Below, piece after piece: positions 17,792 to 59,950 of a stretch of DNA of 64,000 bases. Each line of letters opens with the position of its first letter. The stretch's first letter is position 1. The notes beneath the pieces are model-generated. The model was not told where the DNA came from. It ran no database searches and worked only from the letters and a program-made list of their open reading frames with translations. Position numbers and translations under genes: made by a program. The stretch is from Heterocephalus glaber (Eukaryota > Chordata > Mammalia > Rodentia > Bathyergidae). The stretch spans positions 11,357,389 through 11,421,388 of the forward strand of contig NW_004624734.1 of NCBI RefSeq assembly GCF_000247695.1. Direction: 5' to 3'.

Positions 17792-17941
17792 TCACACGTG
17801 CCCCGTGGTGATGTCCATCAACTTCTGGATCATCACAGCATGGACACCAGGGAAGGGCAGCCCATCTACCTCCATGCCCATGATTCCTGAGACTGCACTT
17901 TGGACCTTGTGCTGTACCAGGATGCCCAACATTTTTTCTTC
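17792..17941 (-). pseudogene. DGLUCY: DGLUCY terminal coding exon (open)
   Basis: After the acceptor 'tgatttttccag' this 150-base segment reads 49 codons plus TGA, exactly the length of the human last segment. It encodes [13 protein letters not shown], then [10 protein letters not shown] and MIQKLMD near the end. The human motif HNTHAEM has become PGVHAVM. Reading frame and acceptor are intact. This is the C-terminal end of the DUF4392-type cyclase domain. Confidence 0.9.
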
Positions 17942-18059
17942 CTGGAAAAATCAAATGAAGCAGAGGTAGAAGTTGTGGAGGGGGAAGAAAAAGCAAGAAA
18001 TGCATATATCTGCAAGTGGAGAAAGAGCCTTTGACTTGATGTGTCTCTTTGAAAAATAA

Positions 18060-18240
18060 AGTTTTCTTGTCATCCCAGCTACTCAGGAGGCTGAGGTAGG
18101 AGGATTACAAGTTCAAACCTAGCCTGGGTAATTTAGCAAGACACAGTTTCAAGAGAAAATTTAAGAAAAAGGGGGCAGGATGTAGCTCAGCAATTGCTTA
18201 GCGTGCACAAAGCCCTTGGTTCAATCCCCAGTATTAAATT
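18060..18240 (+). mobile_element. B1-ID dimeric SINE
   Basis: 7SL-type left arm ('cccagctactcaggaggctg', 'ggaggattacaagttcaaac') followed by an ID-type arm ('gatgtagctcagcaattg', 'cccttggttcaatcccc'). Lies in the DGLUCY last intron. Confidence 0.85.
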
Positions 18241-18699
18241 TTTTAAATTAAAAATGCTCATGTCACTACAGGTTTATGATGAAAAATAAATCCATATCAT
18301 GCCTCATGGGCGCCCAAACCCACTCCCCAGAAGTCCCCACTTGCACAGGTCAGGCTGTTCTTCAGGTGGTCATCTTCAGGTCACCAAATCCTGTGCTCTT
18401 GTGGAGACCTGCGTTTTCTTGCAAACACTAAAGATTCATCCTCCAGCAGGGGCTCCATGGCCCCATCCTGCCAACCAGCCCAGCCCTGCCCAATGATCCA
18501 CTGGAGGCCTGAGTGAGCCAGAGGTCCCTATTCCCCCACACCCCACCCTCAGCCTCCTACAGCACAGGCGACAAATCCTGCTGCTGTTGCTGTCTAGGGT
18601 GGAAGAGGGAGCAGCTGGAGGGAGCAGAGCTGTGGAGAAAACACAGTCCAGGGCCCAGAAGCAGCATGGCTTTGGGACCAGACAGATCCAATGTGGGTC

Positions 18700-18880
18700 T
18701 TTCCTGGCAGGGGCTTTGACAGAGAGCTGCGTCTTCGGGTACTTACCTGTAAAATGGGGATGATGCCAATGATCAGAGTAATGGCCTCTTCAGAAGCTGC
18801 TGTAAAGATTAAATGAGATCATGGAAGTAGAGCATCTAGCATGGCCCTTGGTACACAGTAGGTGCTCACAAAAGGAGGCT
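18700..18880 (+). repeat. MIR/L2-like fragment
   Basis: Includes 'acctgtaaaatggggatg', 'taatggcctcttcag' and 'ggtacacagtaggtgctcac', the usual 3' end of MIR/L2 elements. Confidence 0.55.
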
Positions 18881-19439
18881 GATTATTAAAGGCAGGGCTT
18901 GGGCTCGGGCCTTTCTTCCTTTGACTCACTTGGTGGTTAAGGGGAAAAAAGGTTTGATCCTCGATCTCCCCCTTTCCCATTCTCTCCAAAAATAAGGTCC
19001 GCAAGAATTAGCTGTCTAAGCCACTAATGTGTCTGTCCTTGGCCACACAGCTCAGGTCTCTCTGAGGAAGGTGGGTCTCAGAAGGCATCAGGCAGGAGGG
19101 GCAGAGGTCAACACCTTCCTCCCTCCCTCCTCCACAGGCAGAGGCAGAGGGGAGACGGGAGACCAGAGGACGTCAGTGCTGGTGTGAAAGGCTCGCACCT
19201 GCCTGCTCAGGCATGCTCTCATCTATTCCATTAGCTATCGGTTTTATTGAGCACCCATCTGGGGCCTGGTCCTGACCCAGAGATACCAGAGTGAGTGTGA
19301 CCCAGCCCTGCCCCAGGGGGTTCCCAGCTAGATGAGTAACAGGGCAGTCACAGCACGTGTGTGGGGGGGTGTCACAGCACAGAGCGGGGACACCCAATCC
19401 AGCTTATTATGGTGGCCCAGGGAAGACTTCATGGAAGAG

Positions 19440-19865
19440 AAGTTTATGGACTGAATGTTTGTGTTCTCCAAAATCAGTACATTGAATCCCTAATCCTCAA
19501 TGTAATGGGATTTGAAACTGGGGCCTTAGGGAGGTAATGATGTTAAGATGAGGTCATGAAGGTGGGGCCTTCATGACGGAATTAGTGCCCTTCTAAGAAG
19601 AGGGACTAGAGCTCCTCTATCTCCACTACACCAGCACACAGTGAGAAGGCAGTCATCAGCAAGCCGGGAAGACAGCCCTTACCAGAGAATTAAACCTTCT
19701 GGGGTGAGTGGCTGGGGAGGAGGTGGACAAAGTATCAGGGATGAAGGGACATGAAGGCCAGAGAGGAGGTAATGGTTGGAGTCAACCTTGATGTTGGGCT
19801 TCCCAAACTGTAGAACTGTGAAGACCAAAAGGCATGTAAGCCACTACAGTCTACTGTGCTTTGTT
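19440..19865 (+). mobile_element. MaLR-like LTR fragment, interrupted
   Basis: Opens with 'ggactgaatgtttgtgttct' and continues through 'gaagaaggtggggccttcat'-type text to 'cccaaactgtagaactgtga', the layout of ERVL-MaLR solo LTRs. Between about 19700 and 19785 it is interrupted by a segment foreign to the LTR that duplicates 17166-17252. Confidence 0.6.
19702..19785 (+). repeat. Second copy of the 85-bp segment, inside an LTR
   Basis: Near-copy of 17166-17252 in the same orientation. The flanking LTR text resumes immediately on each side ('ttaaaccttctgg' and 'ttgatgttgggcttcc'), so this copy arrived after the LTR. Confidence 0.7.
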
Positions 19866-20727
19866 CCAGCTTCCTGAGATGACTAAGATGAGGGGTGAAA
19901 AGGGTCAGAGGTAATGAAAGAGCAGGAATGAGCCCAGTGAGGGGCCTTGAGAGCACTCATGAAAACTCTAAAATAATGAGTAAAGGGTTGGCAAGTGTTG
20001 GCAACTGTCACCTCGGAACAGCTGGCCAGGGCCAGGGTGGATGTTCTCTTGTAGAGGGAGGCCCAAGGGCATTTCCACTTTTCCACATGAGCTCATTGTT
20101 CAACAGCCCCTTTCCTGGGGCTGCCCAGCCCAGAATGGAATTTCCCACCCTTTGTCTGGACTTTATTCCCCCACTTCTCTTTCCCATTGGTCACATCCTC
20201 TCTTTGTGGGAGAATGCATCTCAGACTGTTGGACCATTTTCTCCAAGTCTTCGGCCTGCCCTCAACATCCTCCTCCTCCTGGCACCCAGGGGGAACACAG
20301 GGAGGGCCTGGGGGTCCGCAGGGGGCCTGTGACCAGCCAGCAGGCTAGGAACTGGCTGCCACTCAGCCTCTAAGAGCTCACAGACCAGCTGGGCTAACAG
20401 CTACTCCCTGCACATTTCCAGGAATTGCTGAATGGCCACCTCATCTTCTAAGAAGCCATGTAGGGGCGGTGATGGGAAAGAAGGGTTGAGGCAGGAGCAG
20501 CTGCCTGGTCCAGGCTGAGAGAGGCAGTGGGGCAGGAGAGCGGGACAGAAGATGACCAGAGTAAGACTATGTGGACAGGAACTGGGGCCTGATTTGATGT
20601 GCATGGAGAAAGAGGCCCCAGGGAGACTTGTGGGCTTAGAGGCTGAATGGGGTACCTGCTATTAATTCTTAGTGGAGCACACTGGGCTGGTATTTATGGG
20701 ATGTGATGCTGCTTTAAAGTGTGGTGA

Positions 20728-20855
20728 AAAGCTGGGTGTGCACTTACAGTCCCAGCTACTTGGGAGGCTGAGGAGGGAGGATTGCTCAAGCTCAGGAGTT
20801 CGAGACCACTGTGGGCAACATAGTGAGACTCGGTCTTAGCAAATCACAACAAAAC
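20728..20855 (+). mobile_element. 7SL-derived (B1-like) SINE
   Basis: 'gctgggtgtgcacttacagt', 'cccagctacttgggaggctg', 'ggattgctcaagctcagg', 'gagaccactgtgggcaac' is a 7SL-type SINE close to the Alu/B1 ancestor, with an A/C-rich tail. Confidence 0.85.
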
Positions 20856-20859
20856 AAAA

Positions 20860-21240
20860 TTGTTATGTCATATCTAGATGTCTCCCCAAGGCCTCATGCT
20901 TTCATAGATGGGGCTTTTGGGAATGACCTGATTATGGGTATGCGCTATTGGATTAGTCTGAATGGTTTAGCATAGTTCTGGACTTACTGAGGAGGGAAGA
21001 CCCAGCATAGATGTGGGTGGTACCAACCAATAGGCTTGGAGTACGGATGGAATTAAAAAGGAAAGAAGAAGGACCCGGCATGAATTGTTTCTCCTCGGTC
21101 ATGCCTTTCTGCCATGCCACCTTGCTTTGCAGCTATGGACTGAAACCTCTACAAACTATGAACTAAAACAAACCTTTCCTCCTTTAACTTGTGGGTGTTG
21201 GGTATTTTATCCCAGCAATGAGAAAGTAACCAAGACAAAA
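20860..21240 (+). mobile_element. MaLR/ORR1-like solo LTR
   Basis: The right half is diagnostic: 'gaacccaca'-like text is absent, but 'aaacaaacctttcctccttt', 'gggtgttgggtattttatcc' and 'cagcaatgagaaagtaacca' is the R/U5-side end of MaLR LTRs. No internal ERV genes. Confidence 0.6.
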
Positions 21241-21319
21241 GTGGAGTGGATAAGGGGCCTCCTGGAAAGTCAGGACTGTTCTGCATCTTGATCTTAGTGG
21301 CAGCTGCATGGGTGCATGT

Positions 21320-21440
21320 GTCTCAGTCACTTTCTCCTTACAGAGGTCCACTACTTAAAGGAGGAAGGTTTATTTTGGCTCACGTTTTTTAGAGGTGGCT
21401 GGCTCCAGGGCAGAAGCAGCACCGAGGCAGGACCTGCCTA
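21320..21440 (+). repeat. Medium-reiteration repeat (URR1-like), partial
   Basis: Shares the opening block 'tcagtcactttctcc', 'acttaaaggaggaag', 'ttttggctcacg', 'tggctggctccagggcag' with copies at 33095, 35140 and 57910. I recall this type as URR1-like, but the family name is uncertain. Confidence 0.55.
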
Positions 21441-21489
21441 GCACGAGAGGGGCACTGGGTTCAATCCCCAGAAAACACACACACACACA

Positions 21490-21810
21490 AATTATTCCTG
21501 CCCTGAACATTTACCAACTTTTCCTTGTCACTCTTCCCTGAACGAGACAGTATAACAATCATTTGCATTGCGCTAGGTATTACTTGTCACCTAGAGATGA
21601 TTTAAAATGCTCAGGGGCTGGGGATTTAGCTCAGTGGTGCCACACCTGCCTCGAAAGTGTAAGGTCCCTGGTATGACAAAAACAAAACCAAACCACCAAA
21701 ACTAAAATGCACAAGAGGGTTGTGAGGGTCACAAGTAAACACTACCCCATTTCATACAAGGGTCTTGAGCATCACAGATTTTGGTTCCCTATGGATACTG
21801 AGGGACAAGG
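21490..21810 (+). mobile_element. Tigger-type DNA transposon MITE, split by an ID SINE
   Basis: 'cttgtcactcttccctgaac' and 'acagtataacaatcatttg' on the left and 'ttcatacaagggtcttgagc' plus 'ggatactgagggacaagg' on the right are halves of the same pogo/Tigger-type MITE seen again at 52478. The ID at 21614-21705 divides it. Confidence 0.65.
21614..21705 (+). mobile_element. ID SINE inserted in a Tigger MITE
   Basis: 'ggggctggggatttagctca' to 'taaggtccctggtatgac', then an A/C-rich tail. The direct repeat 'aaaatgc(t/a)ca' flanks it as a target-site duplication. Confidence 0.85.
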
Positions 21811-22430
21811 GTAGCAGAGAAAGAGAAACTGACTAGATGATGACCAGGCAGAGCCGGTCTGACTGGCCCCAGCTGTAGTCCCCCTCTGGCTGAGGGACAG
21901 TGGCTCCACCCTCATCCTTGGAGGTCCCCAGTTCCTCCCAGGCCTCCAGTCCCTGCCCAGAGCTCTGTTGTCCTGTCCCCCACAGCACCTCTGTCCCCAA
22001 GGTGAGGAAATATGTAGCTCTGCTGGGTCCTTGCATGCCTGACCCTGCAGAACCACTGACAAAAGGCATCTGACAGCTCTTGGCCTCTGGCTGGCAGTCC
22101 TGTCCCCTGTCCTCCCCACCCCATGCCTGCCAGTATTTTCTCTGCACTCAAGAAAAACCCGAGCCCTCACTGGGAGGAGCTCTTGGGCTGAGGGTCACAG
22201 TGGGCAGGGTGTGCCCTAAATAGTGGTGGCCACCCCTGCCAGTCACCATCAGACTCCTGATGTCTCCTGTCTGTGAATAGAGGAGGCTTTGCTTACAGGA
22301 AACTCAGAGCAGAGGGGGGGGACCCTGCTCTGCCCAACCGATCAAGCTTTGTCACCACCTCAGGCCACGGCTCTACTCAGCACCTCTGATGACTCAGGGA
22401 GCCCCATGGAGAGACTTACTGAACTCTAGC
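21811..22430. other. DGLUCY intronic sequence, nothing recognised
   Basis: GC-rich, with several overlapping chance open frames on the minus strand (21772-22170). None resembles a DGLUCY exon or a known protein. Confidence 0.4.
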
Positions 22431-22439
22431 GTGCCGATT

Positions 22440-23887: not shown

Positions 23888-23930
23888 ACCTAGCTGCTGA
23901 TCTCTAAGAGTTTGTTTTTTAGTTTATGCC

Positions 23931-25099
23931 TTTTTTTTTTCTTAAGTTCTTTTATTGGTACATTTTAGGTATACAATTCGTTTACATTTATCATTGGGTG
24001 TTTGTACCTGTACATGATGTATCTTGGTTCTTATTTTTTCCCCATTACCTCTGCACCCTTCACCCCCTCCGCCCTTCCCTATTTACATAGACATCATTTC
24101 CATTTTTTTTTCTTTTCTCATAGTTTTTCCTTTCCCTCCTTTCCTTTCCCCTTCCCCTCCCTTCACCCCTTCATCTTTGGACCTTTTTTCCTATTTCAAA
24201 TTATCAATTATTCATTTTAGTCCTTATTTACACTTTCAGTTTCTCACACTAGAGAAACTATTGGGTATTTACACATGTGTGTCCTATTTATTTCACTTAA
24301 GAGTAAGGCCTCAATATCCATCCATTTAGCTATAAATGACTCTAGTTTTTTGTTCTTTATGGCTGAGTAGTACTCCATTTTATAAAAAAACCACATCTTC
24401 TTTATCCAGTTTCCAGTTGATGGGCACTTGGGCTGCTTCCAAGCTTTAGCTATTACAAACTGTGCCGCTATGAACATGGGTGCACATATATCACTGTGGT
24501 ATGATTCTTTTAATTCTTTGGGGAAGATCCCCAGCAGGGAAATAGCTGGGTCAAACGGGACCTCTAGTCCTAGTTCTTTGAGGTATTTCCATGCTGATTT
24601 CCACAGTGGTCGCACCAGTCTACACTCCCACCAGCCATGGAGAAGGGTTCCTTTCTCCCCACACCCCCGCCAGCATTTGTTATTGGTTGAAGACATTGGC
24701 ATAGGAAAAGACTTCATGAACAAAACCTCAGTAGTACGGGAACTAGCACAAAGAATCAACAACTGGGATCTCATCTTATTAAAAAGCTTCTGCACTGGAA
24801 AAGAAACCACCAACAGAGCTAACAGACAACTTACAATATGGGAAAAAATTTTTACCACCTGTACCTCAGACAAAGGACTACTATCTAGAATATATAAAGA
24901 ATTGAAAAAAATCAGATCCCCCAGATTCAAAGACCCAATTCAAAAATGGGCATCTGAAATGAATAGACATTTCTCAGACAAAGAAGTAAAAGCAGCAAAC
25001 AAATATATGAAAAAATGTTCAACATCACTGGTCTTTTGAGAGATGCAGATGAAAACAACACTGAGATTCCACCTCACCCCAGAAAGAATGGCTGCTATC
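23931..25099 (-). mobile_element. 5'-inverted (twin-primed) L1 with target-site duplication
   Basis: A poly(T) start at 23931 marks the 3' end of a minus-strand L1. From there to about 24690 the sequence is antisense L1 3'UTR and ORF2 C-terminus (minus-strand peptides [29 protein letters not shown] and MEYYSAIKNK). From about 24691 to 25099 it is sense L1 ORF2 that lies just upstream in the parent element ([36 protein letters not shown]). The inversion joins two pieces contiguous in L1. The insertion is bounded by AGTTTATGCCTTTT on both sides. Both ORF2 pieces are incomplete. Confidence 0.9.
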
Positions 25100-25149
25100 T
25101 AGTTTATGCCTTTTGGGGAACAAGCCTGGGAAAGTGAGGCCATATGCAT

Positions 25150-25258
25150 GATCTAGTTTCATTCTCCTGCATGTGGATGACCAATTTTAGGAACACCATT
25201 TGTTAAAAGAGGCTACCTTTTCTCTAGTGTATGTTTTTTGGCCCCTTTGTCGGAGATC
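25150..25258 (-). mobile_element. Short isolated L1 internal fragment
   Basis: About 110 bp nearly identical to 27096-27207, from 'ctagtttcattctcctgcat' to 'cctttgtcggagatcag'. It has no poly(A) end of its own. Confidence 0.8.
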
Positions 25259-25756
25259 AGACTGGCTCAGGCTGGTTGGGACTGGTGTTGGGATCAGCAG
25301 GTCTGCCTAACCCGGCCCAGGAACCCATCCCCAATCCCTGAATGGGGACCCTGGGTCACAGGCCTCCCTTCTGGTAGGTGGGGCAGCTTTTTAAAGCCAA
25401 CAAGCTATTCCTTATTTAACTGGCAGTGGTCCTGGAACCACTACCCTTTGGGCTGCTTTTGTCCCTTGGGTGGCTGAAGGGTTGTCTGTCACCTGTCCCC
25501 AGAAAGCCATTTGGGTGTGAAGTCCCAGGTCCCCCTGGACCTTGTCTCTTTCAGGTTAGACAGGCCAGTGCTTTTCACCATGTTCCTAGCCCTCCCACCT
25601 GCCATGTGCTCACAGGTGAAGTCACATCTGACACAAGATTTCAAAGTCAAGTCAGGGCTTTGGCTCCAATTTCTTTCCTAAAAAATATTTACTGTAATGT
25701 TTAATACATAATGTTTAGATTCATTTTGGGGAATTGGTAGCTACATATATTACATC

Positions 25757-25965
25757 TTTTTTTTTTTTAAATTAAATTCTTTTATCGGTACATTGTAGGT
25801 ATACAACACAATTACATTTCTCACTGGGAATTGTACCTTTACATGATGCATCTTGGTTCTTATTTTTTCCCCATTCCTAGCCCTCCCTTCACGCCCTCCA
25901 CCCTTCCCTATTTACAAAGACTTTATTTCCATTTTTTCCATTTCTCATCATTTTTCCTTTCCCTT
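25757..25965 (-). mobile_element. Short 5'-truncated L1 inserted in older L1
   Basis: A poly(T) opener and an antisense L1 3'UTR (near copy of 23931-24130), ended by a repeat of the flanking 'tatattacatctt'. The direct repeat at about 25745-25756 and 25968-25980 is the target-site duplication. The older L1 text resumes as 'gattattgttgacccc'. Confidence 0.85.
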
Positions 25966-28900
25966 CTTATATATTACATCTTGATTATTGTTGACCCCTT
26001 TTCTCCTCTTCCCCAGCTTCCCCTCTTCCTTTTCCTTAACTGCTTTCCTCACTCTAAAACATCTGCCTTCATTTTCTACCATTGTTCTTTTATTTTACTC
26101 TTTTTTTTATATATTTTGGGTTTCTTATATGAAAGGAACCATGCAATATTTAACTCTGTGTCTAATTTATTTCACTTCACATCATGGGCTCAACATCCAT
26201 CCATTTTCCTGCAAATGGAGTGATTTCATTCTTCTTTATGGTGGAATAATATTCATATATATATATATATATGTGCCATATTTTCTTTATCCTTTTATTT
26301 GTTGATTGGCATCCAAGCTGTCTCCAGACCTTAGCTATTGTGAATTGCATTGCTATAAACCTGAGCATGCATGTGTCATCATAGTATGATGACTTTAATT
26401 CTTTTGGAACTATACCCAGGAAAGGTACAGCTGGGTCAAATGGGATTTCTATTGTTAGTGTTCTGAGGAATCTCTATACTGATTTCCACTGTAGTTAAAC
26501 TAATTTACATTCCCACCAACAATGTAGAAACACTCCCACCCCCGCCTTGTTAGCATTTGTTGCTTCTTGTGTTCTTGATGACAGACAGGCATTCTGACTG
26601 GAGTAAGATGGAATCTCAGAGTAGTTTTGATTTGCATTTCCCCAGTGGCTAAAGATGTTGAACATTTTTTCATGTATTTATTGGCCATTTGTGCTTCTTT
26701 GGAGAAGTGTCTACTCAGTTCATATGTCCATTTTTTGATTGGGTCATTTGGTTTTGGGAGGTTAATTTTTTTTGAGTTCTTTAGACAGTCTAGACATTAG
26801 GCTGCTATTAGAAGAGCAGCTGGCAAATTTTTTTCCCCATTCTATAGGTTGCCTCTTTACTCTGTTGGTTGTTTCCTTGGCTACGCAGAAGATTTTTAAT
26901 TTGATATGATTCCATATCAAATTAATTGGAATTATTTCTTGTGCTACTGGAGTCCTATTGAGGAAGTTCTTGCCTGTGCCTATGGATTCAAGTGTTTCTC
27001 CTAAGCTATCTTCTAGCAGTTTCAGCATTTCTGCTTTTGTATCTAGATCTTTGATCTATTTTTATTTGATTTTAGTGCAGGGTGAGAACGTGGATCTAGT
27101 TTCATTCTCCTGCATGTGAATGACCAATTTTATGAACACTATTTGTTAAAAGAGGCTATCATTTCTCTAGTGTATGTTTTTTGGCCCCTTTGTCAGAGAT
27201 CAGATGGCTGAAGATGCATAGGGTTGTTTCTGTGTCTTCTGTTTTACTCCATTGGTCCACACGTCTATTTTGTGCTAGTATCATGCTGTTTTTGTCATTA
27301 TTGCCTGTAGTATAACTTGAAATCTGGTATTGTGATGCTTCCTGTTTCTTCTTTTTGCTCAGGATTGCTTTGGCTACTCTGGGCGTCTTCAGGTTCCATA
27401 TAAATTTTAGGATTTTTTTTCCTAGTTCTGTGAAGAATGTTGTTGGTATTTTAATAGGAATTGATTATCTTTTGATAATATGGCCATTTTAATGATTTTA
27501 ATTCTATTTATTCAGGCACAGGGGATGTCTTTCCATTTTCTAACTTCCTCTTCAATTTGTATTTTTAGAGCACCATAGTTTCCATTGTAGAGGTCCTTCA
27601 CCTCCTTGGTAAAGCTGATTTCAAGGGGTTTTTTTGTTTTGTTTTGTATTTGTTTTGTTTTAAGGCTACTGTGAATGAGACTGTTTCCTTGATTCTTTTC
27701 TTGGTGGGTTCCTTATTGGTGTGCGGGAATGCTACTGCTTTTTGTGTGTTGATTTTGTATCCTGCCACTTGGCTGAATTTGTTTATTAGCTCTTAAGAGT
27801 GGAGTCTCTGGGGTATTTTATGTAAAGGATCATATCATCTGCAAATATAGTCTGGCTTCCTCCTTTCCTATTCATATCTCTCTTTTTTCTTTCTCTTGCC
27901 TGATTCCCTTAAAGTTTCAAGTATTACTTTGAAGAGGAGTGGGAGTGGATGAGGTAGGTCTGTTATATCTTTAAGGGATTTCTTTGTCCAATCTGCCAGT
28001 ATGTGTCTTTTGACTGGGGGGTTAGGATTATTTACACCAAGAGTTATCATTAAAAAGTATTTAGTAATTCTTATCATTGTATTATTTGTTCTATGCTGAT
28101 TTCTTTTAATTTTCCTTTTGGTAAAATCTCTCCCAGTGAGATTTATTCTTTCCTTTGGGTTCTTGGGTGTTGATGGCCTCATTGTTTAGCATTCCCTTAT
28201 GTATTTTCTGCAATGCTGGTTTGGTGGTCATGAATTTTTTTTAAGATTTTGTCTCTGTCATGGAAGATCTTTATTTCTTCGTCTATTCTGAAGTACAATT
28301 TGGGGGGGGTATAGTAATCTGAGTTAGCAATTATTTTCTTTTAGGGCTGAAAGACTTCACTCCTGGCCTTTAAGTTTTGTGTTGAGAAATCTGCTGTTAT
28401 GTTGATGGTTTTGCCTGTATAAGTTATTTGACACTTTTCTCTAACAGCTTTTGGTATTATCTTTTTGATTTGAATTTCTAGAACTTTGACTATGATGTAT
28501 CATGGAGAAGTTCTTTTCTAGTTGTGTCTATTTGGGATTCTAAATGCTTCACTTAGCTGGGTATCCAACTCATCACCTAGATTAGGAAAATTTTTTGTAT
28601 TGATTTGGGTGAATAAATCTTTATGCCATTAAATTCTATCTCTAACCCTTTCTTAATTCCAACAATCCTTGGGTTTGTTCTTTTAGGGTCATGTAGGAAG
28701 TCTTGGGAATTCTGATTATCTTTTGGGTATCACTAAGTAAATGACATGCTATCTCAACCTTGTTCTCAATCCTGATATTCTGTCTTCTGATTGATTGTGC
28801 CTACTGCTAAAACTTTCAATCGAATATTTCATTTCCATAATTTCTGTTTGATCTCTTTTCATATCTAATGTCTACTGAAGTGGTCTTTCATATCCTGCAC

Positions 28901-32647: not shown

Positions 32648-32799
32648 CTTAATGACAGGCAGCAGGGCCTGTGTCCAGCTCTGCTCCTCAGGTGCTCTGG
32701 AGGGTCCAACTGCCTTCCTCAGATAAGGTCCGTGGGTCTCACATGAGTTCAGGATGTACAATGCGCAGGCCAAGGCATAGCTGCCCCAGTTAGAAACAC
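32648..32799 (-). pseudogene. DGLUCY: DGLUCY exon encoding [11 protein letters not shown] segment (open)
   Basis: 152 bases, acceptor 'gttgttgtcctag', donor 'gtaaca'. Enters in phase 1 and reads [16 protein letters not shown], then SYLRKAV-like [14 protein letters not shown] and ends VIK, codon for codon in register with the human segment (50 residues). No stop or frameshift. It belongs to the C-terminal cyclase domain. Confidence 0.93.
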
Positions 32800-32892
32800 C
32801 TAGGACAACAACAACAACAAAAGAATCTGTCCCAGAGCATTAATGGTCCGGTGCTCCAGCCACTTGCTTCAGGCAGCAGAACTCATCTGGAA

Positions 32893-33075
32893 GCATGGTC
32901 CCAGACCAGAGGCACCAGGGTCACCTGAGGACTTGTTATGATGACAAATTTGTGCCCCCACCCCGGCCCGACCTGCAGAATCAGAAACTCAGCAGGGCAG
33001 GAGGGAAGCAAGTCCGGTTTAATGAGCCTTCCAGCTGAGTCTGATGCAAGTTAACAGTTGAAAACTGTTGCTCGA
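32893..33075 (+). repeat. MER5A-like hAT MITE
   Basis: 'caccagggtcacctgaggac', 'cccgacctgcagaatcagaa', 'tttaatgagccttccagctg' is a fossil hAT MITE pattern. Confidence 0.6.
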
Positions 33076-33094
33076 AGCCATTTGGTTTATATAC

Positions 33095-33470
33095 TGTTAA
33101 CTGTCTTTATCATTGTCCTGTAGCTGAGACAAAATACCCGACACCCGCAACTTAAAGGAGGAGAGGTTGGTTTAGGCTCAGGTTCAGTGGATTCAGGTCA
33201 TGGTTGGGCCCCTCCAAGGCAGAACGATAAGGCAGAGGAAAGCTGTTCACTGAATGGGAGTCCAGACGTGGAGAGAGAAGGGAGGAGCCACGGACAAGAA
33301 TGCACCCTCCAGGCCTCGTCCCTCCGAGTGCCCATCTCCTAGCAGCACTCTGAGCTACTGACCTCCTCAGAGGATGAATCTTCTGAGGACTATAGCGCCC
33401 CCATGATCCAGCTGTCTTCCAAGGAGATGAGATGTGGGGGGAATTTTAGATCTAAACCATACCAACCATG
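33095..33470 (+). repeat. Medium-reiteration repeat (URR1-like)
   Basis: Full copy of a roughly 380-bp family: 'gtagctgagacaaaatacc', 'cacccgcaacttaaaggagg', 'catggttgggcccctccaag', 'gaattttagatctaaaccat'. Related copies lie at 35140-35520 and 57910-58270. Confidence 0.65.
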
Positions 33471-34149
33471 AGAGAAGAAGACTCAGGCACTAACCCTCCA
33501 CATAAAAAACCCTCCCAGTGGCTGCAGGGACACAGGCTATAGGGAAGCCCGTCCTCCCATCCTGCTTTGTGTGCTTGGGGCTCACAGCTAAGTCAGCCTC
33601 CGACTTCCCTTTCTGTTCAGTCAGCCAGCCCCTAATACCTCATCCCCCAGCCTGGGGAATCGTCTCCTCTCTGAAACTCTCTCCACTCCACTGAAGAAGG
33701 ATGGACCAGGGGCCTGCTAAGTTCTGGGTGCTGGGGCATCAAAAGAGAGAGGAGTGCCCAAGGGGGTCAGGCACACAGTAGCCAGGGGAGGGGATCTATG
33801 AGCTGTTCAGAGGATCATGGGAGCCCTGAGGAGGGCCTTCGGATTCTGACTGGTTCAGCAAAGATTTCAGAAAAGGGGTCATTTATCATAGGCCTGGTAG
33901 GCTGGGTGCACTTCTGCTGGAGGAGAGGCTGGGGTGGTGCTTCAGGAAAGCAATCAATACAAACAAAACCTAGTGAGCACAAAGGCGCGTGACACAAGCA
34001 TAAAAGGCATACAGCAAACTAAAGTGGAGACCGAGAGACAATCACGATACTGTATTTCACAGATTCTAAGACACCTTTTGGTTACATTTACATCCTGAAT
34101 TAGGAAGTCCGTCCTATTTTACACTTGTCGTTGGCTATGTTTTCCTTCA

Positions 34150-34325
34150 TTTATTTATTTATGCTATTGGGAACTGGATCCAGGCCCCTTGCACTGATTA
34201 GACGTTTTTTCTTTTTTAATTTGAGCCAGAGTCTTGCTAAATCATTAAGCTATCCAGGCTGGGTTCAAACTTGGGATCCTCCTGCTTCAGCATACCAGAG
34301 TGTGCATACCATGCTCTGCCTGTGT
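34150..34325 (-). mobile_element. B1-ID dimeric SINE (antisense)
   Basis: Antisense ID part ('ttgggaactggatccaggcc') followed by antisense 7SL part ('ttgctaaatcattaagctat', 'gggatcctcctgcttcagca'). Confidence 0.75.
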
Positions 34326-34739
34326 TTTCCTTTTTTAGTGCTTCCTAAGATAATGGTAATTCTTGTCACCAATGGTGTTTCACATTTAATGGAAGAGAGT
34401 AACACTGTCCATTGGAAACAGCATCAGATTCCGTAGGCTCAGGACTCTGTCCCACTTTGGATGCCAATCACAAACCCTGGGTTCACCAGTTATCAACTGA
34501 GGGCCCCATGACCGGCTCCCTGGATTCTATCCATTTCTCCAGAGGCTCACAGAACTCTGGGACACTCATACACAGCCCAGAGGCTCAACTGATCATCAGC
34601 ACCAGAGAATCTGTTAATTAGAAAAATAAATGAATACTGGAGTACAGAAATATTAGAAACCTTGGTGAAACGGATGGTGTTCAAGACAGGAGAGTTGGCT
34701 AAAAGTAATTCTTAGGCACTTCCACCCTTGCAGAATTGA

Positions 34740-34885
34740 GATTTTAAAAAGCCAGCCTGGGCAACTTAGCAAGTCCCTGTCTCAAAATAAAAGGGCTGGG
34801 GGTGTAGTTCAGTAGTAGTGTGCTTGCCTAGCATGTGTGAAGCCTCAGGTTCAAGCCCAGCACCATATATATATATATATATGGT
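34740..34885 (+). mobile_element. B1-ID SINE remnant ending in (AT)n
   Basis: The left arm is reduced to 'ccagcctgggcaacttagca', then an ID arm 'gggctgggggtgtagttcag' and 'caggttcaagcccagcacc', ending in an (AT)n tract at 34866-34882. Confidence 0.8.
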
Positions 34886-34934
34886 GGTCAGTACCCTTTG
34901 AGGTATTCTATACCCACAAGCCACTGTTGGAGCC

Positions 34935-35060
34935 TATGGGCACAATGTGTATACCTATAGCTCCAATCCCAGCTACTTGGGAGTTTGAGACAGAATTGCT
35001 TGAGCCCAGGAGTTTGAGACCAGCCTAGGCAACATAGTGAGAGCTGTCTCAATAACATTT
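34935..35060 (+). mobile_element. 7SL-derived SINE
   Basis: 'ctccaatcccagctacttgg', 'gaattgcttgagcccaggag', 'gaccagcctaggcaacatag' is Alu/B1-like monomer sequence. Confidence 0.8.
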
Positions 35061-35134
35061 CATGCAAGGTATGTGTCCCAGTGCCTCAAGGACAGAAGAC
35101 CGGTCCTCTTGATCCTACTAAACAGATGAATTAC

Positions 35135-35520
35135 TGTGTCTTAGCCACTTTCGTGTTGCTGAGACACAATACCTGACACCTGCAACTTAAAGGAGGAGAC
35201 ATGTATTTTGGCTCACGGTTTCAGAGGTTTCTGTTTATGCATGGTCAGCTGGCTCCAAGGCAGAGATGGCATGGTGGAAAGGCCTGGTAGAGGACAGCTG
35301 CTCATGTCAAGGCAGTCAAGAAGCAGAGAGAAGGGAGGATCAGGAGACAAGAATGTACCCTTCTAGGTCACTCCCCAGTGACCCCCCTCTCTGACCAGGC
35401 CCCACCTTCTAACAGCACATTCAGCTACAGCACTCCCATAATCGAATCACCTTCCAAAAAAGTTCTGCCTCTGAGCACACGAGAATTTTGCGAGTCATTC
35501 TTGATCTAAACTATAACATA
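35135..35520 (+). repeat. Medium-reiteration repeat (URR1-like)
   Basis: Second full copy of the family at 33095: 'ttgctgagacacaatacctg', 'ctgcaacttaaaggaggaga', 'ccttccaaaaaagttctg', 'ttgatctaaactataacat'. Confidence 0.65.
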
Positions 35521-35638
35521 GTATTCGAGTTTGGTTCTGTACAGGCTGGCTTCCACTGCAGGATGGTGGAGTGGGGAACCAGAGCTGACCCATCTCAAAC
35601 ATGAGAGACCAGACTTAGCCAAAAGAATCAGGTAATTG

Positions 35639-35722
35639 GGCCAGAGATTTAGCTCAGTGGTTCCGATGCCTGCCTTGCAAGCACAAGGTCCTGAGTTCGA
35701 TCCCCGGTACCAAAAAAAAAAA
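35639..35722 (+). mobile_element. ID SINE, first of a tandem pair
   Basis: Complete ID ('ccagagatttagctcagtgg', 'gagttcgatccccggtacc', A15). The preceding AAAAGAATCAGGTAATTG is repeated, in part, after the tail. Confidence 0.95.
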
Positions 35723-35735
35723 AAAAAGAATCAGG

Positions 35736-35819
35736 TTGGGGCTGGGGATTTAGCCCAGGGGTTTCGCTGCCTGCTGTGCAAGGACCCAAGTTCGATCCCC
35801 GGTACCTCCCCCCCCCCAA
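35736..35819 (+). mobile_element. ID SINE, second of a tandem pair
   Basis: Complete ID of a different subtype ('tggggctggggatttagccc', C-rich tail). It is preceded by AAAAGAATCAGGT and followed by AAAAGAATCAGGTAATTG, so the target site appears three times. Confidence 0.95.
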
Positions 35820-36579
35820 AAAAGAATCAGGTAATTGACCAATACCTTCCTTTCACACCCTGATGATTTTTCTCAGAACAGTTTTCCAGACTGATGCCCG
35901 CTCATCAAATGACAGAAAATAATACCACTTGGAAGTGTTCATGGGTCTGCTAAGGGGGAAGTCTGAAGCCATGGCCAGCCACCTCCACCTGCCTTCTCAC
36001 ATCTCGGGGTACCACAGTAAAGATGGAGTCCATTCAGTGGGGTGGGGGCAGGGTATCCTCGCAGCTCCTTCAGACCCCCACTGCTGATGGCCCCTCTGGA
36101 CTCTGTGATCCTCTACCCTGGGAATCCCCCTCAAAGGCCTTGGGTCCTCTGCCTGCCAGCCCAGAGTAACAGGAAGCTCGGAGTCAGCCAAGCCACCACT
36201 CTGGGAGGGCCACACCCATGGTCTGTTCTGGGAAAGGCCCAGCCATCTGCAGAAACTTTCTAATCATTGTCTCCTCAAAACCTCAAAAGCCAAAGGGGAC
36301 TAATGTGTCTGGGAAACACTCCAAAGTGCTTGGGTGGAGAGAAAAGGCGCAGGGGACAGACAGGCCTTAATTGCCCTGACAGGCCTGAGACCTGCCCCAG
36401 AGGGGGAAAGTTGGTTCTTTTAGAAATTCATAAAGGCGGCGGCATAACTCCTGGGGTCTGGACTCTGCTCCTAGTTCTACCAGCAAGTATAATCATCTAG
36501 GCAACCTCAAAATATGTCTCTGGTTCCCAGTTTTGGACAGTGTACTGCTCTTCTATCTGACCCCCAACCCTCATCGCTT

Positions 36580-36778
36580 TTTTCCTTCTGGTGTTACAGA
36601 GGGTTGAACCCAGGACCTTTGCACTATGCTACATCTCTGGTCTTTTAATTTTTTTTAATTTTGAAAGAGGATCCTGCTAAGTTGCCCAGGCTGGCCTCAA
36701 ACTTGCAATCCTCCTGCCTCAGCCTCCTGAGTAGCTGGGAATACAAGTGTGTGCCATCATGCCCGGCTGCTCGTAGGT
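36580..36778 (-). mobile_element. B1-ID dimeric SINE (antisense)
   Basis: Antisense ID arm ('gggttgaacccaggaccttt') and 7SL arm ('gttgcccaggctggcctcaa', 'ctcagcctcctgagtagctg'). Confidence 0.85.
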
Positions 36779-37249
36779 TTTTTTTTTAAAGGTGTGAATA
36801 ACACAATTGATATAAAACTTCTCTCAAAACTATAAAGTTTTGCATAGATACTACCACATTATTATACTGCTCACAATAATCCTACAGGAATCATATATTT
36901 GATATACTTAAAAATTAGGGTGTTTCAAAAAAATGAGACAAATTTCATCCTATATGATCCAAATAATATGCTGTCTCAATTTTATTCTTGTTACTGTTTC
37001 ATCATTTGTCTTACTACCTTAGATTCCAGCAACTAGAATATGCTCTGTAAGTGTCACTTCCCCTTCTTGCTTCGGAAACGTCACTTTCGAAATGGCTGTG
37101 TCATTAATGTCTAGACTGCCTAATAAAGAACATCTTTGGTGTGGAAGACAATAGTCCCCATGCAGCTCTCTCCTGCTCTCTCTCACAGCTAATAGGAAGA
37201 CATTTAGTGCTGACACGTTGGTGTGCACTTCTTGGAGGATCCCGCTTAC

Positions 37250-37398
37250 CCGTTGATGAGATTCCAGGAATTTTCTGTGCAGCGAGGAAAAGGTCGTCAA
37301 CGTGGTCCACTGAGTGCTTCACGTTCCTCTTCCTGGCGTTGTAGTAATTGCCATCGGCAGCCCTTCCGGCACACGCTGTGGCCACCCCGTGGTCAAAT
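37250..37398 (-). pseudogene. DGLUCY: DGLUCY exon encoding [13 protein letters not shown] segment (open)
   Basis: 149 bases, acceptor 'gcttccaggcag', donor 'gtaagc'. It reads [30 protein letters not shown], then [16 protein letters not shown] in the same phases (2 in, 1 out) and length as human. [12 protein letters not shown], a conserved block of the cyclase C-terminal domain, is preserved. No lesion. Confidence 0.95.
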
Positions 37399-41064: not shown

Positions 41065-41188
41065 CGGGGTGACTTGGGGTCCCCACCTTTGCACGGAAAG
41101 GCCTGAGCATCTTCCACTGACCCACCTTGGTCAGTTAATACTGGGATCTTACCACTTGGTAAGTTAATACTGGCATCTTCAGAACACC
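41065..41188 (-). pseudogene. DGLUCY: DGLUCY exon with tandem duplication and GC donor
   Basis: Acceptor 'cctctattttcag'. In the phase needed by its neighbours the 124 bases stay open and give [20 protein letters not shown], then GGDPKSP, like human. The first third contains a second copy of the CCAGTATTAAC block at a period of 29 bases. With small compensating changes the exon is 24 bases (8 codons) longer than human, and its first residues no longer match. The donor reads CCCCG|gcacgt, GC in place of GT. Disruptive but not by itself decisive. Confidence 0.85.
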
Positions 41189-45517: not shown

Positions 45518-45775
45518 CTTGCTTGACAGCATCCTCAACAAGTTTCCTGTGCAAGGTCAAGGCCCTCTGGTCAACCACCTTAGAGACCTCCTTCCCCAGG
45601 CCCTGCAGGAAGGTGGCCAGAGCAATGGCTCCTGGGGGACCGTCTGTCTCTTCCAGGAGCTCAAGATTGAAATTTGTGGGCAACCCGGTGGTGATCAGCA
45701 CGGAGTGGGCATGGGACAGCAACAGAGGCCTTCAGCAGCTCATCTTTGTGGAACAGGGCCTGATCCCTCGGTTGC
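45518..45775 (-). pseudogene. DGLUCY: DGLUCY exon encoding [13 protein letters not shown] segment (frameshifted)
   Basis: Acceptor 'gtaattttag', donor 'gtgagt'. It enters as (G)NRGI as in human, then loses one base before the KDELLKAS block and two bases after it, so the exon is exactly 3 shorter than the 261 expected. Read in the inherited frame the first deletion brings a TGA at 45732-45734. After the second deletion the frame is again that of human: [45 protein letters not shown]. Start of the C-terminal cyclase domain. Confidence 0.9.
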
Positions 45776-49833: not shown

Positions 49834-49859
49834 ATATGTGGATTTAAAAGAAAATGATG

Positions 49860-50377: not shown

Positions 50378-50576
50378 CTGGGTCTATGGCAATTGTCAAC
50401 TTTAGTTCTCTGATATTTGGAAGGGCTGAAGCTGACACAATGCTGTAGAGCAAAGGGTCTTGGGAAATGAGATGGATTTCTGGAACTGTCTTGGGGGTGA
50501 CACTGGGCTGCAGTCTCTGTATCTTTCAGATGGGTCATAACTGCACCTGGCATGCTAGTGAAAGCCAGTGGAGCCT
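50378..50576 (-). pseudogene. DGLUCY: DGLUCY exon encoding APLAFTSMPG segment (frameshifted)
   Basis: Acceptor 'gttgtgtgttgcag', donor 'gtgaaa'. It opens in register with human (APLAFTSMPG, VMTHLKD). Two bases are lost before the conserved [16 protein letters not shown] block, which then reads in another frame through SIVSAS and IRELK to IDP at the donor. Length is 199, against 204 deduced for human: one codon plus two bases shorter. The frameshift is not compensated inside the exon. Confidence 0.88.
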
Positions 50577-53162: not shown

Positions 53163-53285
53163 CTGCAGCTGCTGACGGCTTTGACACCAGTCTGCTGAGA
53201 AGGCCAGAACCCTAGGATGTCCCCTGGATGACACACACATGATTGCCATAGTCAGGTTTGGAAAGCGCTTTGATTCCCAACAGTT
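53163..53285 (-). pseudogene. DGLUCY: DGLUCY exon encoding LLGIKALSKPDYG segment (frameshift, stop)
   Basis: Acceptor 'ccacctgcag'. It reads LLGIKALSKPDYG in register with human. One base is then lost, and the continuing frame hits TAG at 53212-53214. In the other frame FWPSQQTGVKAVSS matches the human end of the exon. At the expected 3' boundary the text is CTGCAG|cgtgtt, with no canonical GT at the exact position; a weak gt lies one base on. Confidence 0.88.
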
Positions 53286-54284: not shown

Positions 54285-54436
54285 CTGAGGGGGCCAATGT
54301 GGATGAATTTTCCTGGCTCACCCACCACAGAACAAGTGACCTACAACAGCCTTTCCAGTTTGTCCTTGGGAACGGGCCTCATTGTGACCACCAGGTGGCA
54401 GCAGAAACCAGCTACAGTGGCGCAAGGCACTGCTGT
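54285..54436 (-). pseudogene. DGLUCY: DGLUCY exon encoding [17 protein letters not shown] segment (nonsense)
   Basis: Acceptor 'gctttgtcag', donor 'gtcagt'. The 152 bases align residue by residue with human over 50 codons: [30 protein letters not shown], then a TAG at 54341-54343 in place of the human Arg, then VTCSVVGEPG onward, still in register. Length is conserved, so the stop is a simple substitution. Confidence 0.92.
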
Positions 54437-56783
54437 CTGACAAAGCAAGCAAAAAATGTTTAAAAATGGTTATCCCAGATCTACCCAGAGTTCAAGGCAG
54501 CTGCACAAAGGAGGAGGTCCCAGTAGCTGTTATATAAATACACCTTCTACTTTTAGATGACATAGAGGTGAGGAAGTTTGCCAGTAATTACTGGTTAACA
54601 ATTGGGAATCTTAACTTTTCGTGCGCCGTAACCCCTTTGGTAGTCTGATGTAGTTATGTGTTGTTAATCACATAAAAGAAAATTCATAGGATTCTCGAGG
54701 GATCCAATTATATTGTAAAAACAGTTATCAAATTCTGGGAAAATGGGATAAAGCAATATGCATGCTTTTTTTTTCAACAGCTTAAGGAACAAAACAGCAG
54801 ATCTACTATCATTGTGATTTTGAAGTGATGATCAACATATAGGATATTTTTGTGATACCAGGAAAATCTGTAATATGACGTGTAGATGTCTGTGATTTCT
54901 TTGGACAGCCACAAAGTTACAGGATTTGCTGACAGTCATAATGGGAAGAAATGCTAAATTTTAGTTTGAAATTATAAAGTTAAAAAAAAAAATCCCTATC
55001 CAATTTCATGGACCCTCTAAATTTTCTCCATGGGTCTCAAGGGGCCATGACAGTCATAGACAGAGGGACCTAAGGACTGGAACCTCCTGGGAGGAGACTG
55101 TCTGCTCTTTCTCCAGTTTCTATACAAGGGACACAGGCCTGTCCCTAGGCTACTGAATTCTGCTGTGTTCTTGCTTCAAAAGGAGTTGCCTGGGATGATC
55201 TGGGTGACTCTCATTGCTGTTGTGCTTATTCCCTTACTGTGACGTTTTCTGGTGCCAGCACTGGGGCTTACGAAGGATTTAGGGTATGTCCAGGACCGTA
55301 ATCCACCGGGGCAGCCTTGGTTGCTCTTAAAGGGCATTCTGTTGCCACCCTGGCAGCAGCAGGATGGAACCTGGGTGTGCCTGCCAGCCTGGTGTCTGCA
55401 TAGCAGCACCTGGAATGAGGAGAGGGCACACGACAGGGCTGCTCAGAGCCAGACTGTGCTCCTGAGGCTGTGTGGGGTCGCTTCATCCTGTCCAGGCCTC
55501 CGTTGGAATCCAAGATGGTCACTGGACATCCCCCACCCGCAGGAGCCATAGGGCTGAGACGCAATGATATTGGACTGACAGCTATTTGGTAACCATGGGG
55601 GCAGTGCTGTGAAGTGCTGTGAAAAAGCAACAGCAGCCATATTGAGCACTGAGCAGGGGAGGCTTTCTTAGTCTTTCGAATGGGCAGCACCTCTTGTAGT
55701 TAGGGGTTCTGGGGTTCAGTTGGCTGTGGCACTTGGGCAAGACTCTGTCTCTTTTTAGGCCTCAGTTTCTTCATTTCAAATGAGTGGCTTTGTGGTGAGC
55801 CAAGAGGCCTTCTCCACTCTTCTTGGTATAAATGATGGCGTGATCCTGGGCTGCTCTGCCTTGGTTCTGGCCAGCAGCTGTGGCTCTACCTTGCTCCTCC
55901 CTAGTTTGAAGAAAACCTTTCGGGCACCCAGTTCACTGTGAAAGGCAGTGGCAGCCTGTGGGTAGCCTTGTTTCTGGTCAGAGGTAACGCAGGCTTCTCT
56001 GGCAGCAGCCCAAACTAGGATTTAATAAATGCCCTGGAGCTCAGGATGTAATCTCCAATCTGAGTGCTCCATAAATAACCTCGTCTGGAGCCTGGCCATT
56101 TGCTGTGGCTGCCATTGCTCTAGCAGAGCAAATTCTCAGGCTTTTCCAAACAGCATCCAGGAGAGGCCCAGTGGAGTGAGGGACTCTTGTTCTTGAGCCC
56201 TGTCAGGTTACAGCTGGAAAAAGCTCAGAGGCTCAGTGGGAAGACAGGACCCAATGGCAGGCACATCCTGGGAATGGGGACCATGCTGCCTTTGTGACCA
56301 GCAGCAGCCACCTCCAGCCAAGAACATGACCCAGCTTTCTGGGCAGAGACAGCACAGCAGCTAGTGGCCCTGCTGAGGCTCTGCCGCAAATCCCTGGGCA
56401 TTAATAGAGCCAGCCACATTCTCCCTGAGGTGACATGAACCCAAAGCAGGAAGAATTTTCCAAAATCTCTTTGAGATGCCCTAAATTAAAAGAGCCAGAC
56501 AAATTCCAGACGAGTTTAGTTGATGTAGCTACAACTTAGGGTTAGGGTTAGTGTTAGGGATACCACAGTGGTATCAGACTTGGGTAGGAGAGAGGCTGGC
56601 TCAGAAAGGATAACAGCTTTGCCTGGGTTGCACAGCTAGTAAGTGGCTGATCTGGGGCTACAGCTTAGTTTTTCTACCTCCTGTGCCAGTGCTGTCCCCC
56701 TAGAGGAAAATGCAAATTGATCCACATTTTCAGGCCATTCTGCCCTGGTTGGTGGGTTGCAATTTTATCTTGTATGCTCTTGA

Positions 56784-56967
56784 GTGACTGTGACCTGCTG
56801 GGTCTCTTCTAGAGAGCTTAGCCTTCTCTAAGGCCTCTTTCAGAGAGAAGCTGAAGTCTAAGACAAAGGTTACCATGTCCTTCAGCTGCTCCGAGTACTC
56901 CTCCAGTGAGGACAGGCAGCCTGTGCAGGTACCAGACTTGTATTTCCAGAACTGGGGAAAACCTGTC
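56784..56967 (-). pseudogene. DGLUCY: DGLUCY exon encoding [12 protein letters not shown] segment (donor lost)
   Basis: Acceptor 'ttgtgtctccag'. It reads [44 protein letters not shown] and RRDPAGHS without a stop. It is 184 bases long, as deduced for human. The next two bases are TC where GT is required (CAC|tcaaga). A cryptic gt lies upstream inside the exon (CAG|gtcaca). Confidence 0.9.
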
Positions 56968-57324
56968 CTGGAGACACAATGGAAAGCTTGTAGGCTCTCA
57001 GACCATCAATATGACCCTTGATAATGCTTTTTTTTGAGACAGGTCATGCTATGTAGGGGGCCCTTGAACTCGGTATTTACCCTGGCCTGGACTTGTGCTA
57101 CCATATCTAGAGGACAATGCAGTTTTTAAAAGGACCTGTGAGAGTGAAGGAGATGTCTAGTGCTGAAATTTCAGGCACAGTTACCAAGGTAGGGAATATG
57201 GCTTTTGGCAGTGGGCTTTGTAGGCTCCCTGAAAATGTGACCAGTTAGAAGGTATTTAATCAGCCTGTATATAATGTAGCCCTTGGCTGCCACCCCACTG
57301 TAATTCCTATAACAGCCTGAGACT

Positions 57325-57412
57325 GGGCTGGGGATTTAGCTCAGTGGTTCTGTCATCTGCCTCACAAGTGCAAGGACCCGAGTTCGATCCCTGGTACCAA
57401 AAAAAAAAAAAA
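57325..57412 (+). mobile_element. ID SINE with target-site duplication
   Basis: Complete ID with A14 tail, flanked by ACAGCCTGAGACT on both sides. Confidence 0.95.
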
Positions 57413-57809
57413 ACAGCCTGAGACTAGCCACAACAACAGGAAAAAAACCAATGGTGTCCTGTCTGCCTTGGCCACACGACTAACAGACCACAAAGAACAA
57501 AGGAACCTCTCAGAGCAGGGGATGAAGCCTTTCTCTTCCTTAGAGAAACTCTCCTGCAGGCTTGAAAGCCTATAGTTATAACGTTCACTAGCTCCAAATG
57601 CATTTACGGCAGCGTTACTCCCTGCTGGGCACATGTGTGGTGATGGGGCTTTGAAGATGGAGAGGACCCCTTCCCAGAACTTAAACAGCTGGTTATCCTA
57701 CGCTGGTAGGTGAGACAATGTTGAAAACAGATAGTTGCAATATAGAGCAGTACATGTTAGCAGTCTAAGTAGAAGAGTGACTCAGAGAATGGAGAAATCT
57801 ATTTTCTAC

Positions 57810-58525
57810 TATTGTTGTAGTTTGGATATTGAATGTCTTCCCAAGGACTCCTGTGTTGAAGACTTCCCTAACCTATGGTGGGGTTGTGGAGCATTTATAA
57901 GGTGAGTTCTTGTCTTAGTCAGCCTTTTCATTGTGGAGAAACAGTACCTGACACTTACAACTTACAGAAGGAAAGTTTTAATATAGCTCATGGTTTCAGG
58001 AGGTTCAGTCCATGGTTAGTAGGCTCCAAGGTGGAACCCTCAAGGGAGAAGGGTGTGATGGAGCAAAACTGCTTAGTTCATAGTGGCCTGGAAGCAGAGA
58101 AAAGAAACAATGCCAGAGAGGAATGGGCAAGGGACCAGATATAGTACCCAAGGTCACACCTCCATGACTCACCCAGACACACTCGAGAGTGTTACTAATC
58201 TGCTAGGTATTTCTTAATCCAATGAAAGTGACATATCAGAGTGAAGGTCACAATCCTAGTGGAAGGAAGTTAGGTCCCTGGGAGTGTCCTTTGAATGGTA
58301 TATCATGTCTCTGGCTCCTTCCTCTCTCTTCCTTTGCTGCCTGGCCACCATGAGGTGAGCACCATGCATTTCCTCTGTGATGTGCTGCCTCACCACAGGC
58401 CCAAAGCAAAACAGCTAACCATGGACTGAGCCTCTGAAACCTTAAACCAAAGTAAACCTTTCCTTCTTATAAGTTGTTTGTCTCTGGTATTTTGTTACAG
58501 TAATGGAAAACTGATTAGCATACTC
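57810..58525 (+). mobile_element. MaLR-like solo LTR split by another repeat
   Basis: The left part 'gttgtagtttggatattgaa' and the right part 'ctggccaccatgaggtgag', 'aaccaaagtaaacctttcct', 'cagtaatggaaaactgatta' are the ends of one MST/MLT1-type LTR. The middle (57910-58270) is a URR1-like repeat. No internal retroviral genes. Confidence 0.7.
57910..58270 (+). repeat. Medium-reiteration repeat (URR1-like) nested in an LTR
   Basis: 'cttagtcagccttttcattg', 'acagtacctgacacttacaa', 'ggttcagtccatggttagta': third copy of the family seen at 33095 and 35135. Confidence 0.65.
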
Positions 58526-59134
58526 ATGATGGAGGAGGTTCTGGGTCTTGAGGTATAAATAGGAGCTTACCAGCATATCTAGGCCAAGGGAACAGGATAG
58601 GAAAAACATGAAGGTATTGAATACCACAGCCATTGCCAGGTCAGTTCTAGGAGTCTCCAATTTGGTGGTGCAAGAGGTGCCAGGGAAAAATGTAAAGGAG
58701 CAACCTTAGCCTCTGCTGAGGTTTCTGCAGAACCCTCCCATCCTTGTAGTCCACAAAATGAGGACAGGATGTTGCTGGGGAGCTTTCTGTCTGCATGAGG
58801 GCTAGGGCTGCCTGGAGTGTTAGGGTTAGGGGAAAAGGTGAGCCAGGGCTGGGTTACCACTGTTCCTGAGATGGGGCTTAAGGTGCCAGCCAAGGCAGGT
58901 ACTGAATGATGATTAATAGGAGAGTCACATGAGCAGATTCAGACCTAGAAAACCCCACCCTGGTGGGGAGAATAGAAGATGGGGTAGGAGGAGGAGAGGA
59001 CAAGACTAAGGTGAAGGGAACAGTCAAGACAATGGACAGTCTAGGCAAGGGAAGCTGGCCTAGTGGGAGAGACAAGGACTTACGGAGAGCCATTAATTAC
59101 AGAAGCAGAATCCTAGGGCAATTTATGAGACATG

Positions 59135-59410
59135 TCATATATTAACCACCCCCCATCCATGGACAAGAGCTCCCAGTGGATGCTTGAAACTGTGGCTGTA
59201 CCAAGCCCTACATATGCTATGTTTTCTCCTAAATATACATACCTGTGATAAAGCTTAATTTATAAATTAAAATAACAATAATTGTAACAATGTATGGCAA
59301 GAAAAGTCATTTAAACCTTTGACTTTTCTGTTTCTGGCATTTTTCATGTAATATTTTCAGATCTCCATTAACAATGGGTAACTGATACCAGGGATGGGGC
59401 CGCTGCTGAG
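59135..59410 (+). mobile_element. Tigger/MER-type DNA transposon fragment
   Basis: 'ccagtggatgcttgaaactg', 'accaagccctacatatgcta' and 'aagcttaatttataaattaa' follow a pogo/Tigger-type MITE as remembered. Confidence 0.65.
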
Positions 59411-59795
59411 TCTGAGTCAGGACCAATACACCCCACAGCACTGATGCCTTCTGTTGGTGACGCACATGTTTTTCTTCTGAATTCTGTGCAGGCAGCTTTC
59501 TGGCTTAGATAACGAAGTGACAGATGGCAGCACTCTTGGGATTTCTCCAGGCTGGACTTTCTTAGAAATCCCAAAGATTTTACTGTGGGGCAGGGGCCAG
59601 GGGTGGGGCAGGCGTGGGGGATGAAGTAGGAATGATGGGGAAGGTGGCTTGCCTCTGAGCAATAGTCACATGTGGGGCTCTGTGGCAGGTTCTACGGGGT
59701 CCCTGAGGCTGGACTCAGAGGCTCCTGGTGATGAAACATCTGGCTGTAGCATCTGGCCACTGCCAGACTTTGACTCCGAGACCCAGGCTCTCTAC

Positions 59796-59950
59796 CTGAT
59801 GTCGGGAACAGCACCCGACTGGGGCTGGCAGCATCCACTTCCCTGGCTCATTTTGGCCCAGCAGGGACAGAAGACCACGGTTGGCCTGGCAGAACCTTTG
59901 GAAAACCGGTGCCAGGGACCTGGGCAGGACCACTATGCTGGCTCGGAGCC
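59796..59950 (-). pseudogene. DGLUCY: DGLUCY exon encoding [16 protein letters not shown] segment
   Basis: Acceptor 'gtgacccag', donor CAG|gtagag. It reads [19 protein letters not shown], then [13 protein letters not shown] in register with the human N-terminal region (after the mitochondrial leader). Past WMLP the match fades, and the exon leaves in a phase one base off that needed by the next exon. A second GT 15-20 bases earlier (GTCGG|gtgctg) would keep the frame but drop residues. The upstream leader exon was not found in the window. Confidence 0.85.

Follow-up and report, generated by a model that had tools for sequence, protein, structure and literature searches.

The window, the whole analysed stretch of 64,000 nucleotides, carries the orthologous locus of DGLUCY, the mitochondrial D-glutamate cyclase, in a hystricomorph rodent; the locus very probably decayed to a unitary pseudogene after the split from the chinchilla lineage, with presumably no cyclase made. 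Judged from its sequence, Heterocephalus glaber is probably a natural D-glutamate-cyclase knockout. Disabling lesions were present at an intron-bearing orthologous locus, no open coding sequence with working splice sites was left, and no functional copy was detected elsewhere in the assembly. The orthologue is open in the models of beaver, squirrel and chinchilla, the last of these being a predicted model that contains an unusual insert and whose C-terminus is replaced.

Ten segments matching DGLUCY were found in order on the minus strand by tblastn with an approximate human DGLUCY query (E about 1e-6 to 1e-24). The database proteins of beaver, chinchilla and squirrel recovered the same ten segments, except for the last exon with the chinchilla model. 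The ordered, intron-separated series that a preliminary description had recognised from the letters was thus reproduced with a human-based query and three database proteins. The exon anatomy was obtained by frameshift-aware alignment of the beaver, chinchilla and squirrel proteins to each exon and by mapping of the splice sites; for exon K, which is missing from the chinchilla model, the beaver and squirrel proteins served. The features are:

59796..59950, minus strand: exon A (coding exon 2), frame shifted near 59822-59816, GT donor kept
56769..56967, minus strand: exon B, open frame, donor lost (AT at 56768-56767)
54285..54436, minus strand: exon C, TAG in frame at 54343-54341
53164..53285, minus strand: exon D, frame shifted near 53244-53235 and running into a stop (53214-53212), donor GC (53163-53162)
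50378..50576, minus strand: exon E, frameshift near 50502-50499 and one codon missing, splice sites kept
45518..45775, minus strand: exon F, two frameshifts (near 45761 and near 45720) enclosing a TGA (45734-45732), splice sites kept
41065..41188, minus strand: exon G, 29-nt tandem duplication (41179-41151, 41150-41122) leading to TAA, GC donor at 41064-41063
37250..37398, minus strand: exon H, open, canonical splice sites, Glu before GRAADG changed to Ala
32800..37249, minus strand: interval of exon I, about 40 codons with GVGDGGNELGMG expected, undetectable
32648..32799, minus strand: exon J, open, canonical splice sites
17792..17941, minus strand: last coding exon K, open as far as TGA (17794-17792), acceptor kept
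9372..10490, plus strand: GPR68, syntenic neighbour, intact, adjoining the DGLUCY 3' end

The joined translation of the window, used as query in a protein search, matched proteins named DGLUCY, with beaver the closest at 68 % among the best 120 of 655 matches; the aligned window read-through shared 76 % identity with beaver DGLUCY (407 of 534 aligned residues). On the read-through, PF07286 and PF14336 were recognisable with 206.5 and 138.6 bits, above the cut-offs. The exons span 42 kb, several with intact splice sites, and the position beside GPR68 is also that of the human gene. By its ordered exons, both Pfam domains and the GPR68 synteny the locus is the DGLUCY orthologue by descent. A retrocopy or processed pseudogene was rejected, since introns and the GPR68 neighbour are retained.

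The case is stronger than at first stated (at least six independent lesions): of the 11 coding exons that should lie in the window, 8 are affected. There are five frameshifts, three donors that are either lost or GC, a single nonsense codon, the 29-nt tandem duplication and one undetectable exon; neither domain is covered by an open reading frame. Of the positions singled out in the preliminary description, 54342 is the middle base of the in-frame TAG of exon C, which was flagged also in the whole-assembly searches, 53213 lies within the first stop met after the exon D frameshift, and 45733 falls into the TGA between the two frameshifts of exon F. Exon B is the one whose donor is lost, and two GC donors were present, in exons D and G. 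The frameshift of exon A is visible against chinchilla and squirrel, the beaver alignment ending just short of it, and exon C may contain one additional base at its 3' end. Beyond the first list of lesions are the duplication in exon G and a broken first coding exon outside the window. The latter was absent from searches of the window and was located about 0.6 kb past its end (flanking sequence L011 703-597). It lacks an ATG where the start should be, and a frameshift leads to TGA; its 5' side is uncertain, because a run of N lies directly upstream.

The exon reported as not found, exon I with the conserved GDGGNE motif, was sought between exons H and J, from 37250 to 32799. The scores of 28 and 31 with two queries were at the level of the shuffles (20 per query, means about 30), with two positive-control exons at 122 and 166. 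An exon I present but masked by divergence was rejected, the scores being no higher than those of the shuffles.

Exons H, J and K were counted against the pseudogene reading, since their frames are open and their splice sites good. They could still give a shortened product with a non-cyclase role: their splice sites are canonical, and a join of H to J without exon I preserves the frame, as in human isoform 5. However, exon H is altered at the most conserved motif, exon I is undetectable, and the upstream exons F and G are frameshifted. The window thereby fails both core motifs, E..GRAADG by the change of Glu to Ala and GDGGNE by the undetectable exon, and such a product was considered very unlikely.

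Decay of a single-copy DGLUCY, the preferred reading, was further examined against the whole source assembly (2.59 Gb, 421 contigs), of which only the best candidates were scored and which has gaps. Both PF14336 matches and the only PF07286 match were at the DGLUCY locus. The beaver protein gave 11 matches, 10 of them at the locus; the eleventh had an E of 0.39 and two stops. No second DGLUCY copy was present among these best candidates, and the absence of an intact second copy, which the preliminary description had set as a test of its claim, held in the whole-assembly searches apart from this chance-level match. A dead duplicate with an intact DGLUCY elsewhere, assembled or unassembled, draws some support from runs of N near the locus, which may hide sequence. 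It is extremely unlikely, given that the assembly matches DGLUCY only here, that the ancestral GPR68 neighbour and the introns are kept, and that none of the best 120 of 655 proteins is closer than beaver.

Amino acid constraint was assessed in an alignment of 55 rows, the window read-through and 54 hand-picked DGLUCY proteins, each from a different species. The reference consisted of 43 placental proteins that carried no low-quality flag; the others were 7 flagged proteins and 4 from marsupials and platypus. The 54 were drawn from 128 DGLUCY proteins among the matches listed, 24 of which carried no name. Of the 131 columns that do not vary among the reference placentals, the read-through breaks 13, the highest fraction of all rows. 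Among the references, 41 of 43 break 0-4 columns; the exceptions are Grammomys (8 of 157) and Chinchilla (7 of 163). In Grammomys, 7 of the 8 broken columns fall within 527-545, a pattern suggestive of an isoform effect. A second DGLUCY loss in chinchilla was rejected: the replaced C-terminus of its model accounts for four of the seven changes, so that three remain. The four non-placental proteins, presumably intact, break 8-12 of 156 columns through sheer distance, and the column test is therefore valid only within placentals.

That the gene works and its lesions are errors of sequencing or assembly is hardly credible: the data come from a single assembly, but nonsense, splice-site, duplication and missing-exon lesions are spread over separate exons, 13 of 131 invariant residues are altered, and the window also holds an undamaged GPR68. 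Indel-type errors cannot explain the lost constraint, which thus supports the pseudogene reading. The earlier argument that lesions in separate exons speak against a single assembly error gains from this variety of lesion types. The unitary pseudogene proposed in the preliminary description is likewise upheld by several lesion types in different exons, lost constraint, retained introns and GPR68, and the want of another copy in the assembly searches.

In Tajima counts of window to chinchilla, the window was ahead with each outgroup: 57:44 (Castor), 61:39 (Sciurus), 56:42 (Cricetulus) and 61:41 (Microcebus), with a chi-square above 3.84 for two of the four. The comparison with Homo (55:23, chi-square 13.1) was excluded, the Homo entry being a partial isoform with a poor alignment. 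This modest rate excess over chinchilla was counted against the pseudogene reading; it suggests that DGLUCY was probably under constraint for much of the period since the split. The read-through clustered with chinchilla with bootstrap values of 98 (19 taxa) and 95 (30 taxa), although in plain identity chinchilla (391 of 515) and beaver (407 of 534) are about equally close. The chinchilla model is open at the lesion sites of the window. GPR68 of the window is 97 % identical to chinchilla GPR68 over 72 % of the query; over all aligned columns chinchilla (270 of 309) is below another relative (277 of 309), owing to the different C-terminus of the chinchilla isoform. The intact GPR68 marks the window as mammalian. 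An ID-type SINE consensus matches it 21 times, which corresponds to about 20 elements and points to a rodent, and the grouping with chinchilla together with the GPR68 similarity places the window in a hystricomorph. No other named hystricomorph was present among the best 120 of 635 matches to chinchilla DGLUCY, which would fit a wider DGLUCY loss.

D-aspartate oxidase is another enzyme able to remove D-glutamate. The broken gene would supply no D-glutamate cyclase and hence no conversion of D-glutamate to 5-oxo-D-proline, and D-glutamate should accumulate in the heart, by analogy to the mouse knockout, unless intake is small or D-aspartate oxidase removes it. DGLUCY loss would in this way alter D-glutamate metabolism. 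The conversion to 5-oxo-D-proline was demonstrated for purified mouse DGLUCY, and mice without DGLUCY are viable, with no gross defects and high heart D-glutamate (PMC5339696, in part). With the loss thus tolerated in mice, the simplest cause of the decay would be neutral loss under relaxed constraint. In mouse, DGLUCY is the demonstrated clearing enzyme of D-glutamate (PMC5339696). A natural knockout would make the role of D-glutamate in the heart and brain of mammals testable without engineering, by either a high cardiac D-glutamate or another clearance route.

A low-quality flag from the source was attached to 7 of the 128 listed DGLUCY proteins: all four cetaceans, both sirenians and one sloth. 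The six cetacean and sirenian proteins break 10-15 of 155 or 156 invariant columns, similar to the window, and the flagged sloth model breaks 1 of 156. Three changes are common to all four cetaceans and nine to both sirenians, as expected if constraint ended before each group diversified. Tree branches are long in dolphins and less clearly so in sirenians. The semi-aquatic otter, beaver and desman break 1, 3 and 0 columns, thus water as such is not the rule; the underground Nannospalax breaks 3 of 158. The cetacean and sirenian models also look decayed, which suggests repeated loss. Whether DGLUCY was lost repeatedly and independently, in the hystricomorph lineage as well as at the stems of Cetacea and Sirenia, with mitochondrial D-glutamate clearance dispensable or even disfavoured under a shared physiology, appears to us evenly balanced. 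Our boldest guess for this physiology is low-oxygen life, in water or underground, the underground part presupposing an African mole-rat. If true, the cetacean and sirenian losses would show when D-glutamate cyclase stops mattering across mammals.

Unitary pseudogenes are a well-known kind, and the loss of DGLUCY is apparently undescribed in the literature searched. There, no paper title on an evolutionary loss of DGLUCY occurred among the matches listed, and the search terms had no occurrence in the covered parts of PMC12462620 and PMC10973426. The rodent unitary pseudogenes surveyed in PMC8851862 are likewise, in the part covered, lesion-bearing single-copy orthologues without a functional counterpart in the genome; DGLUCY is absent from the covered main text of this mole-rat survey, its gene lists being in the supplement. 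With the mammalian D-glutamate cyclase (DGLUCY / C14orf159 / 9030617O03Rik) the window has in common the exon order, PF07286, PF14336 and the GPR68 neighbour. In contrast to intact mammalian DGLUCY, it has no open frame over either domain, the GDGGNE exon is undetectable and several donors are lost. Archaeal TON_0340 (PDB 4dwz and relatives) is a structural relative of the C-terminal domain. Unlike it, the window is without the GVGDGGNE exon and Ala replaces the Glu before GRAADG, a residue kept in the archaeal relatives of solved structure; intact DGLUCY shares with TON_0340 the core of E..GRAADG, GVGDGGNE and VSNWG.

Three groups of repeats lie in the window:

40-377, left edge: 169-nt unit present twice in tandem, with 95 % identity between the copies
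11417-63624, both strands: about 20 copies of an ID-type SINE
24002-27204, between exon J and the last exon, K, of DGLUCY: AT-rich stretch with more direct-repeat pairs

The SINE copies belong to an unusual subfamily. The direct-repeat pairs of the AT-rich stretch measure 107-112 nt and are 71-95 % alike; judged by its appearance, this stretch is probably of L1 origin.

The predicted DGLUCY of Chinchilla lanigera (protein match P0052) carries about 40 extra residues between exons A and B, the second and third coding exons, and its C-terminus is replaced, the last exon being absent. These oddities may stem from an error of the gene model or mark an early stage of decay.

Among the matches listed, a low-quality flag was attached to the DGLUCY models of all four cetaceans (P0096, P0115, P0116, P0117) and both sirenians (P0082, P0092). 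Of 155-156 columns constant across 43 placental reference proteins free of this flag, 10-15 were changed in these models, and some of the changes were common to the members within the cetaceans and likewise within the sirenians. Judged from these protein models, independent losses of DGLUCY in cetaceans and in sirenians are possible.
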